DNA from: Syntrophales bacterium
Lineage (GTDB): Bacteria; Desulfobacterota; Syntrophia; Syntrophales; UBA2210
Direction: 5' to 3'
Assembly (NCBI GenBank): GCA_028718565.1
Contig: JAQULO010000010.1
Coordinates: 1-52,070 of the forward strand
DNA length: 52,070 nucleotides
Shown: piece after piece, positions 16,881 to 23,311 of the stretch
Layout: every line of letters begins with the position of its first letter
Numbering within the stretch: position 1 is the first letter of the stretch
Position numbers and translations under genes: made by a program
The notes under the pieces: generated by a model
What the model was told of the DNA's origin: nothing
What the model saw: only the letters and a program-made list of their open reading frames with translations
The model's database searches: none

Positions 16881-17222
16881 TCAGCCGATCGCCTCAATAC
16901 CTGTTTCGCCCGTTCGCACCCTGATGCACTCCTCCATAGGCATTACGAAGATCTTTCCATCCCCGATTTTTCCCGAGCGCGCCCCTTTGATGATGGCTTC
17001 CACGGCGGGTTTTACAAATTCATCGTTCACGGCAATCTCGAAGCGCACCTTATCCCGAAGATTGACCTCTGTGAAGGCGCCTCGATATGATTCTGTGAAT
17101 CCACCTTGCGACCCGCAGCCGATAACATTGGATACAGTCATTTTTCCCACTTTGGCTTCGGTAAGTGCCAGCTTGACATCCGTCAGTTTCTCCGGTTGTA
17201 CAATTGCGATAATAAGCTTCAT
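16881..17222 (-). CDS. glnK: PII-family nitrogen regulator, GlnK-like
   Basis: 113 residues, standard PII length. The start [13 protein letters not shown], the T-loop [18 protein letters not shown] (residues 35-52) with the effector-binding Gln39, and the C-terminal [14 protein letters not shown] identify the family. PII proteins bind ATP/ADP and 2-oxoglutarate and block AmtB by inserting the T-loop. Tyr46 is present, but residue 51, the uridylylated Tyr of E. coli GlnB/GlnK, is Thr here. GlnD-type modification at that site is therefore impossible. AGGAGAA lies upstream of the ATG. It follows amtB by 45 bases on the same strand, behind a sigma-54 promoter. Confidence 0.93.
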
Positions 17223-19128: not shown

Positions 19129-19774
19129 TTTGTAACTAGCAGCAATGATTGCATAATATTAAACGGAGCAGATGGTTCAGCGCAAAAACCAACAATATTG
19201 TAGCAGATCATGAAGGTAGCCCTCCCCGCTCTCCTGCTTCGAGACAGTCTTCCGAACCAGTTAATATGATTGTAGGTTAAGCATAGCCGCATTAATATCT
19301 ATAATAAAGAAGTGTAGGCGTGGGGGTTTAATTCCCAGCGGAAAATCCCCGTCCGTAGGGGCGGGGATGAGAGCAATATCCAGTAGTCTTTCGTATACAT
19401 GAAAGGCGGGCTGGACAAGCAAAGCTTGAATTAGAAGATGCCACGTCTATGATGGCTTGGAGATTCATGGGGAGCAGGCCGTCTTGTTGCTGCCGAGTGC
19501 GCGTCTGTCGCCTCCCCGCGAGTTCACGAAGGCAGTCCCCCTCACTCGGGCAAAATCTACATTTTTGTACTATATAGTTTTCGATACTCCCTTTGAGTAT
19601 AATTTTTGCGGCATCAGTGCGAACCAAGTTATCCGCTTAAGGCTTTATATGTTAAATTGTTGTAATATATTTTTTCAAACACTCCGTCCTGGTATCAAAT
19701 TTGCCTATCTACAATATTGTGTTATTGGATACCCGAAAATGCTCCAGACGTCCGAGATGTCTCTACAGGCATTA
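19129..19774. other. Decayed intergenic DNA with one strong hairpin
   Basis: No gene is supported. The hairpin ATCCCCGTCC-GTAG-GGGCGGGGAT at 19345-19368 is a compact stem with one wobble pair. Open frames over this stretch (such as 19328-19627, minus) lack ribosome sites and family resemblance. Base composition is more AT-rich than in the neighbouring genes, typical of non-coding or decayed DNA. Confidence 0.4.
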
Positions 19775-19834
19775 TCATTGGACAAGTGCGTCCGGGTCAG
19801 TTCCGGAGAAACAGGACCCGAGGCAATTGGCTGA
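19775..19834 (+). pseudogene. 3' remnant of a second glnK-type gene
   Basis: The plus strand encodes LDKCVRVSSGETGPEAIG and a TGA. This matches the last residues of the intact GlnK on the other strand ([18 protein letters not shown]) at 13 of 18 positions. No PII sequence is recognisable upstream, so only the C-terminus survives. It lies about 650 bases from the amtB promoter on the opposite strand. It may be left from a duplicated or divergent glnK-amtB unit, most of which was deleted. Confidence 0.65.
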
Positions 19835-20649: not shown

Positions 20650-21285
20650 CTATTCCGTAAACACGACCTCCACTTTTTTCACATCCCAGAGGGGTCCTAT
20701 CTTCTCCATGATCTCATCTTTGATGTTGGAGGCAAACTGGTGGTCGGCGGGGATGTCCACCGTGATATGAACGGTCCCCTTATCTACCTTGATATCCTTT
20801 ACCAGTTCCGTCCGGACAAGATCCAGACCGGAGAGGGGGTTCATCACCTTCTTGAGACGCTTACGAACGATTTCCACGGTGGTGTTTTTCTGGTCCTTGA
20901 CCAGACCGTGTCGCTCCTCGTAGTTCTGTATTGCCGAGCGCAGCCCCTCCACGGCGAGGACCGAGCAGTGGGCCTTGATCGGCGGGAGACCGCCCAGGGC
21001 ATCTGACGCCTCCTTCCAACTGATTTTTTTGGCCTCCTCGATGGTTTTCCCCTTGGCGAGTTCGGTGATAATGGAGCCGGTTGCGATGTTGGAGGCGCAA
21101 CCGTAGGATTCGAACTTGATGTCCGTGATCCGCTTTGTGTCGGGATCGACCTTGATGTGAACCCCCACCATGTCACCGCAGGCGGGACTGCCTTCCATGG
21201 CGTTCCCGTCGGGGTTTTCGATTTTGCCTACGTTACGGGGATGACGAAAATGTTCCAGCACCTTATCACCATAGGGGAATGTCAT
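20650..21285 (-). CDS. IscU-type scaffold fused to a DUF59/MIP18 domain
   Basis: 211 residues. Residues 1-130 are an IscU/NifU N-terminal scaffold. The three cluster-binding Cys are C36 in SPACGD, C63 in SYGCASNIATGS and C107 in LPPIKAHCSVLA, and the conserved Asp is D38. Residues ~136-211 form a DUF59-like domain (VRKRLKKVMNPLSGLDLVRT, then KDIKVDKGTVHITVDIP and a VKKVEVVF end), related to MIP18, SufT and the N-terminus of Mrp, all linked to Fe-S maturation. The CP motif of some DUF59 proteins is absent. IscU holds a nascent [2Fe-2S] cluster; the added domain could aid delivery (inference). The gene follows the IscS-like gene by 12 bases, so the pair is one unit. Confidence 0.88.
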   Translation of the reverse strand: MTFPYGDKVLEHFRHPRNVGKIENPDGNAMEGSPACGDMVGVHIKVDPDTKRITDIKFESYGCASNIATGSIITELAKGKTIEEAKKISWKEASDALGGLPPIKAHCSVLAVEGLRSAIQNYEERHGLVKDQKNTTVEIVRKRLKKVMNPLSGLDLVRTELVKDIKVDKGTVHITVDIPADHQFASNIKDEIMEKIGPLWDVKKVEVVFTE

Positions 21286-21297
21286 TTCTGGACCTCC

Positions 21298-22464
21298 TTA
21301 TTTTTTGGCCAGCGGGCTGATTTCCCTCAACTGGCTTACAACTTCGGTGATCGTGTCCACCACCGTATCCACATCCTCCGTGGTATTGTAACGGCCGAAG
21401 GTGAAGCGAATGGATCCATGCGCCCGCTCATGATCCCCTCCTATCCCGAGGATCACGTGGCTCGCCTCCAAGGATCGGCTGAAACAGGCAGAACCCGTGC
21501 TGACGGCGAACCCGCGCATGTCGAGGTGAAGAGTGATCGATTCCCCCTCCACGAAGTGGAAGGTGATGTTCGCATTCTGCGGGACCCTTTTGGAACGGTG
21601 TCCGTTCAGGGTCGTGTCCGGTACCGTGGCCGATACTCGATCGATGAGGTGGTCCCGCATCACCTTGATCCGTTCGTTCTCTTCGGGGGTTACCAGTTCG
21701 ACAGCCCTGGCGAAGCCGACAGCCCCCGGAATATTCTCCAGGCCGGCCCTGAGGTTGAACTCCTGGAATCCCCCGTCCATCCACTTGGAGATCGGCGTGC
21801 CCTTGCGGATGTAAAGCCCTCCGACCCCCTTCGGGCCGTGAATCGTGTGGGGAGATATGGTGATCAGGTCCACACTTACCTCTCGAGAGTCCAGGGGCAT
21901 CCGCGTGAAGGTGTGCGTGGCATCGGTGTGAAACAGGATGCCTCTCTCTTCGCAAATGCGACCAATCGTCTCGATGTCTTGGGCCGTTCCGATCTCCTGG
22001 TTTGCGTGCTGGATGGAAACCAGGATCGTTTCATCGGTCATAGAGCCTCTTAGTCTGTCAAGATCTACAAGACCTTCATGATCCACATCCAGGTAGGTAA
22101 CAGAGAAGCCTTGCTTCTCGAGCGCCCTGGCGCTGTGCAGGACGGGAAAATCCTCGATTTTTGAAATGATAAGGTGCCTTCCCTTCTTCTCACCGAGCGC
22201 CAGGGCCACCCCCTTGAGGGCCAGGTTGCTCGATTCGGTGCTCCCGGAGGTGAAGATAAATTCCTCGCCGGTGGCGCCGATATGATGTGCGATCTTCTCC
22301 CGAGCCTTCTCCAACGCCTCCCGGGCCTCGATCCCGAGGGAGTAGCCGAACTCCGACGTGGCGACGGGGTAGGTCTCGAAGAAGTAGGGCGTCATGGACT
22401 CAAGGACCCGTTCGTCCATCCTGGTAGCCGCAGCGTTGTCGAGATACACGGTCTTCTCAATCAT
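21298..22464 (-). CDS. IscS/NifS homologue lacking the PLP lysine
   Basis: 388 residues, aligned along its full length with IscS/NifS cysteine desulfurases. The persulfide Cys is C327 in STGSACFSRS and the PLP-ring Asp is D181. Three active-site positions differ from the family: the Schiff-base Lys (E. coli K206) is T207 in ISPHTIHGPKGVGG, the PLP-stacking His (H104) is D105 in KIEDFPVL, and Gln183 is H184. RSGT of the phosphate site reads RAGL. The codon for T207 is ACG, where Lys would be AAG. The protein cannot form the internal aldimine and should have no desulfurase activity, but may still donate a Cys ligand or carry persulfide. Archaeoglobus fulgidus IscS also lacks this Lys and has been reported inactive as a desulfurase. 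The DsrE-like and TusA genes lie directly upstream. Confidence 0.92.
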   Translation of the reverse strand: MIEKTVYLDNAAATRMDERVLESMTPYFFETYPVATSEFGYSLGIEAREALEKAREKIAHHIGATGEEFIFTSGSTESSNLALKGVALALGEKKGRHLIISKIEDFPVLHSARALEKQGFSVTYLDVDHEGLVDLDRLRGSMTDETILVSIQHANQEIGTAQDIETIGRICEERGILFHTDATHTFTRMPLDSREVSVDLITISPHTIHGPKGVGGLYIRKGTPISKWMDGGFQEFNLRAGLENIPGAVGFARAVELVTPEENERIKVMRDHLIDRVSATVPDTTLNGHRSKRVPQNANITFHFVEGESITLHLDMRGFAVSTGSACFSRSLEASHVILGIGGDHERAHGSIRFTFGRYNTTEDVDTVVDTITEVVSQLREISPLAKK

Positions 22465-22476
22465 GACAGTCTCTCC

Positions 22477-22896
22477 TTATATGAATAAGGTTATGCTCGA
22501 TTCCCGCGCCTCCTGTATGTACGTCCCCACGGCCCCGTATTCATCGATCAGGTCCTGTCGGAGGTCCTCCTGCCTGATCCCCATGATCTGCATCGTCATC
22601 TCGCAGGCGATGATCTTTCCCCCCAGTTCCTTGAAATCCTGGAGGAGCCGTTCCAGGGAGGCGACGTTCGCCGCCTTCATCCGCCGACGTACCATCCACT
22701 TTCCGAGACCCATTAGGTGCACTTTCGAGAGGGAGCCCGCCTCCAGCTTTCCCTTTATGAGGCGTTCAAGACCCCAGAAGGTGAAGTAGAGCGAGGCCTC
22801 CATCCCCATCGATAACGCGCCGGTGGATATGATAAGGGCACTGTACAGCTTGTCCATGTCCCCGCTGTGAACGACGATGGTCGCTTTATCGGTCAT
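22477..22896 (-). CDS. DsrE-like sulfur relay protein
   Basis: 139 residues of the DsrE/DsrF-like (DsrE2-type) family. The first strand TIVVHSGDMDKLYSALIIS, the FTFWGLERL segment, the basic MVRRRMKAANVASLERLL and the single conserved Cys98 in KIIACEMTMQIMGI are typical. Proteins of this family accept persulfide sulfur from TusA-like proteins or rhodaneses on that Cys in sulfur oxidation and sulfur transfer. No obvious membrane segment is present. It lies between the tusA-type gene and the IscS homologue, with short gaps, in one minus-strand unit. The exact donor and acceptor are unknown. Confidence 0.87.
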   Translation of the reverse strand: MTDKATIVVHSGDMDKLYSALIISTGALSMGMEASLYFTFWGLERLIKGKLEAGSLSKVHLMGLGKWMVRRRMKAANVASLERLLQDFKELGGKIIACEMTMQIMGIRQEDLRQDLIDEYGAVGTYIQEARESSITLFI

Positions 22897-22914: not shown

Positions 22915-23136
22915 TCAGACGTCTACCCTGATCTTCCACACGTCCCCCTCTTCCCGTATGTCCACCAGGTTCAGGCCCAGCGCCCTTAGGGCCATCGGTA
23001 TCTCTTTTTTTGAAGCGGGGTGCGTCCCCACGATCTCCACGGTATCCCCCGGCGAGGCCTTTCGAAGTGCCTTGCGGGTTTCCACCAGGGGCACCGGACA
23101 GGTCTCTCCCCGCACATCCACCTTTATGTCAGCCAT
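22915..23136 (-). CDS. TusA-family sulfur carrier protein
   Basis: 73 residues starting at the ATG at 23136 with AAGGAGG upstream; the frame is open 34 codons earlier, but that part is not TusA-like. The signature is RGETCPVPLVETRKAL with C13 in the CPxP motif, followed by PGDTVEIVGTHPASKKEIP and the terminal strand DVWKIRVDV. TusA proteins carry sulfur as a Cys persulfide from a desulfurase or rhodanese to acceptors. Here it is the first gene of the tusA-dsrE-iscS-iscU/DUF59 unit. A rhodanese or classic desulfurase is not encoded nearby. Confidence 0.9.
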   Translation of the reverse strand: MADIKVDVRGETCPVPLVETRKALRKASPGDTVEIVGTHPASKKEIPMALRALGLNLVDIREEGDVWKIRVDV

Positions 23137-23311
23137 GCCATACACCTCCTTTATCCGCTCCCGGTTTACGGGGCGGGGATATACACCGCTATTCTGCCCG
23201 ATGGTATCTTGATGCCGTCCATGGAATTCCTCATCCATTGTGCCGATCCAGGGACTCTAGGGGGTTGTCCGAGAAGTCAATAGTTGAAAAACTACCTCTT
23301 TGAAAATGAGC

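Follow-up and report, generated by a model that had tools for sequence, protein, structure and literature searches.

The window, a 52,070-nucleotide stretch from a Syntrophales bacterium, carries four closely spaced genes on its minus strand in the order tusA, dsrE2, iscS*, and iscU/DUF59, separated by gaps of 18, 12, and 12 bp. The first encodes a TusA-like sulfur carrier with a CPxP motif (22915..23136); its likely start is the ATG at 23136, preceded by AGGAGG at 23150–23145. The second encodes a DsrE2-like sulfur carrier of 139 amino acids (22477..22896), its stop placed immediately ahead of iscS*. The third, iscS* (21298..22464), reads intact from ATG to stop, 22464 down to 21298, and encodes a 388-amino acid IscS/NifS-like protein of the class-V aminotransferase fold, referred to here as IscS*. 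Downstream, a 211-amino acid fusion (20650..21285) joins an IscU/NifU_N scaffold domain to a C-terminal FeS_assembly_P (MIP18/DUF59) domain, and the IscU portion contains the three cysteines and ligand aspartate of NifU_N proteins (Cys36, Asp38, Cys63, and Cys107; PF01592, 144 bits). Elsewhere in the window, an ORF at 19457–19834 on the plus strand ends in ...LSLDKCVRVSSGETGPEAIG, which resembles the C terminus of the glnB product (16881–17222) and may be the remnant of a second glnB.

Among the features that define type I cysteine desulfurases (IscS/NifS), IscS* possesses the class-V aminotransferase fold and homology as well as the mobile-loop persulfide cysteine (SxGSAC) and lacks the Schiff-base Lys, PLP-stacking His, and O3′ Gln. 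A sequence-only reading of the locus had claimed, without giving the strand, that Cys327 and Asp181 are kept while Thr207, Asp105, and His184 replace these three residues, and the ORF and its codons (105 GAT, 184 CAC, 207 ACG, and 327 TGT) bear this out. IscS* matches the PF00266 profile with 225 bits. Its best NCBIfam model is NifS (TIGR03402), at 445 bits against an equivalog cut-off of 530.75 (86 below), and TIGR02006 gives 380 bits against a cut-off of 643.2, likewise short of equivalog assignment. The top PDB sequence match is Archaeoglobus fulgidus IscS2, and the predicted fold matches human NFS1 (Z 50), Escherichia coli IscS (Z 49), and A. fulgidus IscS (Z 47). The monomer model has a mean pLDDT of 86, with low confidence in loops 30–40, 227–242, and 327–332; their IscS equivalents are located close to the dimer interface and active site.

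Searching species genomes recovered 80 IscS* orthologue loci (67–90% identical). Bacterial carriers belong to the Thermodesulfobacteriota (Syntrophales), Chloroflexota (Dehalococcoidia and Anaerolineae), Atribacterota, Nitrospirota, WOR-3, Bacillota, and Actinomycetota, and archaeal carriers to the Methanosarcinaceae, Methanothrix, Methanofastidiosum, Theionarchaea, Altiarchaeales, Methanomassiliicoccaceae, and Heimdallarchaeota. Because the records are for the most part metagenome bins, single odd hosts may be mis-binned, but cultured Methanolobus, Methanohalophilus, and Methanococcoides also belong to the set. In a maximum-likelihood tree, IscS* forms one clade (support 100/100) on a long stem of 0.94 changes per column. 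The gene is under strong purifying selection, with dN/dS of about 0.12, 0.06, and 0.12 in comparison to loci L040, L042, and L043, respectively (L041 was left out for a register shift, presumably caused by an indel). Decay or sequencing error as the origin of the residue pattern is ruled out by the intact ORF, the 80 concordant orthologues, and this selection, in agreement with the earlier claim of an intact frame; the concordance of 80 independent orthologues is far more than chance or sequencing error could produce.

Asp105, Phe106, Gln152, Gln156, His184, and Cys327 are invariant in all 81 sequences (the 80 orthologues and the window gene), as are Asn155, Asp181, and Arg353. Phe106, Gln152, and Gln156 count among the clade markers, each likewise found in 81/81, together with A35, F39, Y41, K227, D230, H313, F328, G343, and I382. 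Position 207 is Thr in 71 sequences, Leu in 10 (all Chloroflexota loci), and Lys in none. Lys-type relatives, by comparison, carry the K/H/Q set in 24/24 cases and Asn at position 156 in 24/24. Additional linked changes, missed by the sequence-only reading, are N156→Q, M152→Q, Phe106, conversion of YGNPSSxHxxG to Y(A/P)VATSEFGYS, and the substitutions at positions 242 and 75 described below. The suggestion of three linked substitutions held up on this wider set. A search for homologs with Lys in the same operon, put forward as a way to overturn the pattern, found none among about 90 module loci, as judged in the IscS* gene itself. As an isolated observation among the Lys-type IscS relatives, the codon for the catalytic Lys itself is an in-frame TAA in L036 (G023:C6:1979-3115; SGH*LHGP), which may be an assembly error. 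IscS* as a common trait of the window's phylum is ruled out: 1 of 297 genomes drawn from it, the window's own, carries the gene, and the corresponding count for the class to which a Dehalococcoidales carrier belongs is 3 of 197. Given this patchy presence in the phylum, transfer of IscS* is likely.

The loss of Lys, together with retention of the loop Cys and an IscU partner, is reminiscent of A. fulgidus IscS2 (PDB 4eb5, 4hvk, and 4r5f), which shares the IscS fold at 44–45% identity. The residue sets differ, however. In A. fulgidus IscS2, Lys is replaced by Asp, His206 by Asn, and Gln184 by Ala, the stacking His is kept, and the substrate Arg is lost, whereas IscS* has Asp105 and His184, retains Arg353, and carries His-Thr or His-Leu in place of the His-Lys pair, for which A. 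fulgidus has Asn-Asp. The same Asn-Asp is found in a bacterial protein from the window's own family (L024; G005:C183:4796-5944), which keeps the stacking His, likewise has Ala for Gln and no substrate Arg, contains the motifs DAVAAE and SSNDIYGP, and clusters with A. fulgidus IscS2 (support 100/99) away from IscS*. No IscU like that of the window was found in the 4.1 kb around L024. Membership of IscS* in the A. fulgidus IscS family, and with it the initial claim that IscS* is its bacterial counterpart, is ruled out by tree and residues; L024 is the true bacterial counterpart and represents another Lys-less type among bacteria, of independent origin. Since the clades are separate and the residue sets differ, the IscS fold has dispensed with its Lys on at least two occasions, by different routes.

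A. fulgidus IscS itself is described in PMC7585200 as lacking Lys and desulfurase activity and as ligating the IscU cluster through its Cys. By analogy with this best PDB match, IscS* may be a ligand-donating scaffold that carries no sulfur itself and in which Cys327 would ligate a [2Fe-2S] cluster on IscU, with free sulfide as the sulfur source and TusA and DsrE2 engaged in a side task. Such a role, which we consider unlikely, would suit the invariance of Cys327 and of IscU Asp38, and methanogens and other anaerobes, for which exposure to sulfide is likely, make up many of the carriers. However, it would leave the conserved TusA and DsrE2 thiols of the operon unexplained, a pure ligand function needs no invariant Asp105, His184, Gln156, or Arg353, and IscS* belongs to a different clade with a different residue set.

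Pocket positions of IscS* were read against the PLP contacts of E. coli IscS. Thr76, His206, Asn155, Asp181, and Arg353 are retained. The phosphate-clamp Thr contributed by the other subunit, at position 242, has drifted (mostly Leu, also V/E/I/A and others), and Gly75, which adjoins the phosphate, is changed to Ser, Asp, or Glu, both as expected if the PLP phosphate is no longer held. Some phosphate-only positions are variable, and ring- and substrate-facing positions are fixed with new identities. From this distribution we infer that PLP chemistry has been lost and that the pocket is still important. One extension of this argument is that the old PLP pocket (Asp105, His184, Gln152, Gln156, Asn155, Asp181, Thr/Leu207, and Arg353) houses a new active site that binds PMP, another small molecule, or a metal and that serves, for example, to load Cys327 with a persulfide by activating sulfide or a sulfur donor. 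These residues do not vary between Bacteria and Archaea, and their combination is new; the pyridine-N Asp181 and the substrate-carboxylate Arg353, the latter absent in A. fulgidus IscS, are both kept; and Lys-less fold-type-I enzymes that use PMP do exist (ColD and ascarylose E1). Nonetheless, we regard a new active site as rather improbable, given that no ligand is known, that the degraded phosphate clamp (Gly75 and Thr242) argues against PLP or PMP, and that the monomer model is of low pLDDT in loop residues surrounding the predicted pocket.

The genetic context of iscS* is conserved across both domains. IscU is adjacent to or within about 1.6 kb of iscS* in 79/80 loci, the exception being at a contig end, and DUF59, TusA, and DsrE2 are nearby in 78, 74, and 72 of the 80, several of the misses falling at contig ends. 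In loci of the Anaerolineae type, the genes run iscS*, iscU/DUF59, tusA, dsrE2. The persulfide cysteines are maintained in TusA (Cys14, 83/83) and DsrE2 (Cys98, 81/82), as are Cys36, Cys63, and Cys107 of IscU (each 89/89); Asp38 is conserved too. The module IscU also carries LPPIK, a motif similar to the one that the E. coli chaperone HscA binds. Among Methanosarcinaceae, IscS* and the IscU-DUF59 fusion occur side by side in 37 of the 61 genomes drawn, and neither is present without the other. In the neighborhoods of the IscS* loci, no gene beyond the four of the module is conserved across lineages. The proposal, made from the window gene, that the protein is dedicated to a function other than desulfuration, as a scaffold or persulfide carrier, fits this operon.

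Within 5 kb of the module, an FdhD-like gene was identified by eye in four loci (L046, L050, L054, and L044) and a COG1900-like homocysteine-synthesis gene in three (L046, L050, and L064); a Thi4-like gene, also named by eye, lies near the module in three. FdhD and COG1900 are both linked to sulfur transfer, and in E. coli, TusA and members of the DsrE family participate in the 2-thiolation of tRNA. Such neighbors and precedents would suit a module that serves tRNA thiolation, an FdhD-dependent formate dehydrogenase, or cofactor thiolation instead of general Fe-S assembly. We consider this very unlikely: all cluster ligands and the LPPIK motif are retained in the fused IscU, which points to clusters, and no single target gene accompanies the module across loci.

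The reading we prefer, with slightly less than even confidence, is that IscS* is a PLP-independent docking and persulfide-relay hub that moves sulfur from TusA/DsrE2 to IscU, within a four-protein Fe-S sulfur-delivery module fed by a source other than cysteine. Sulfane sulfur originating from sulfide, polysulfide, or thiosulfate would be held by the conserved cysteines of TusA and DsrE2 in persulfide form; the mobile-loop Cys327 would accept this sulfur and swing into the IscU domain, the presumed site of cluster building; and the fused DUF59 domain would pass the cluster on. IscS* would have retained the fold, loop, and docking surfaces and relinquished PLP desulfuration. Replacement of Lys, His, and Gln in 81/81 sequences while the sulfur-carrying residues stay is consistent with such a hub, as are the adjacency of the module genes across domains and their co-occurrence in Methanosarcinaceae. 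The complete conservation of the pocket (Asp105, His184, Gln152, Gln156, Asn155, Asp181, and Arg353), on the other hand, argues against a mere docking platform, and TusA and DsrE2 could alternatively obtain their sulfur from another source and serve another target.

The complement of other desulfurases in carrier genomes bears on the hub reading from both sides. IscS* and SufB are both present in G002, a genome of the window's genus with 99% completeness, and no recognisable cysteine desulfurase was found in it, its next class-V match being an aminotransferase of the BhcA/PhnW kind; this favors the hub. Genomes of a Methanothrix (G049), a WOR-3 bacterium (G057), and a Methanofastidiosum (G045), their completeness not stated, resemble G002. 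In contrast, the majority of IscS* genomes also carry a Lys-bearing IscS/NifS or SufS, which argues against the hub. The window's genome is one of these, with SufB, a SufS-like gene (C39), and a Lys-type NifS (L003, G000:C5:23604-24688) that is split near residue 90 by a frameshift, either real or an assembly error. Five carriers (G041, G042, G048, G058, and G061) have no SufB match and encode a Lys-type IscS or something closely related to one. G010, a 97% complete genome of the window's family, has SufB and yielded neither IscS* nor any IscS/NifS/SufS homolog at E 1e-3, so the missing desulfurases of G002 do not require replacement by IscS*. Strict substitution of IscS* for desulfurases is weakened by G010 and by the Lys-type enzymes of most carriers. 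In its own right, G010 represents a bacterium whose iron-sulfur clusters may be assembled with no cysteine desulfurase at all.

A broader form of the hub reading holds that a cross-domain module, independent of cysteine and PLP, uses an IscS fold with a rebuilt Asp105/His184/Gln156 pocket to turn inorganic sulfur delivered by TusA/DsrE2 into an IscU persulfide. We view this as doubtful; if true, the module would be an additional route by which iron-sulfur clusters obtain their sulfur. It spans Bacteria and Archaea, is widespread in Methanosarcinaceae, a family with a genetically tractable species, and is a concrete candidate for sulfur incorporation into the Fe-S clusters of sulfide-living anaerobes and methanogens. 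No biochemistry for the IscS* clade was found in the literature searched, nor a paper describing the four-gene module or the D/H/Q pattern in the open-licence literature.

Of the known systems, the nearest is in Methanosarcina acetivorans, whose IscS1 (MA0808) lacks the PLP Lys, has the motif STGSACFS, and was suggested as a protein that may behave like A. fulgidus IscS (PMC7585200). Its partner IscU1 (MA0807) is 24.2 kDa, four further clustered genes were called unknown, and recombinant IscS1 formed inclusion bodies (PMC7585200). The Cys-loop with the clade-specific Phe, the missing Lys, and an IscU1 size that fits an IscU-DUF59 fusion all resemble the module, and from this published motif and partner size IscS1 is almost certainly an IscS* orthologue. 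The pair differs in having been published only as an iscSU copy with unconserved PLP residues, with no activity measured. A Lys-less protein of this kind was hence in print in 2020, and the trait is neither new to the literature nor bacterial only; the family-wide pattern and the module were not found in the papers searchable. In M. acetivorans, SufBC is dispensable (PMC10500019), and deletion of IscSU2 has a mild phenotype, as cited in the same paper. With sulfide, neither SufBC nor IscSU2 is required (PMC10500019, PMC7585200); therefore another system, or redundancy, must supply clusters, which is consistent with the hub reading. The MIS system (MisS/MisU) also has at its core a minimal pair of IscS and IscU genes, known from archaea and certain bacteria (PMC12442378 and PMC10653786); it differs in that MisS is described as a cysteine desulfurase. 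E. coli IscS, in structures with TusA and IscU (PDB 3lvj and 3lvl) that are among the best fold matches of IscS* (Z 49, rmsd 1.9–2.1 over 363–366 residues), shares the loop Cys and the partners, and its binding of both TusA and IscU supports IscS* as a hub. The difference lies in the chemistry: E. coli IscS generates its persulfide from cysteine via PLP-Lys, a reaction that appears to be absent in IscS*.
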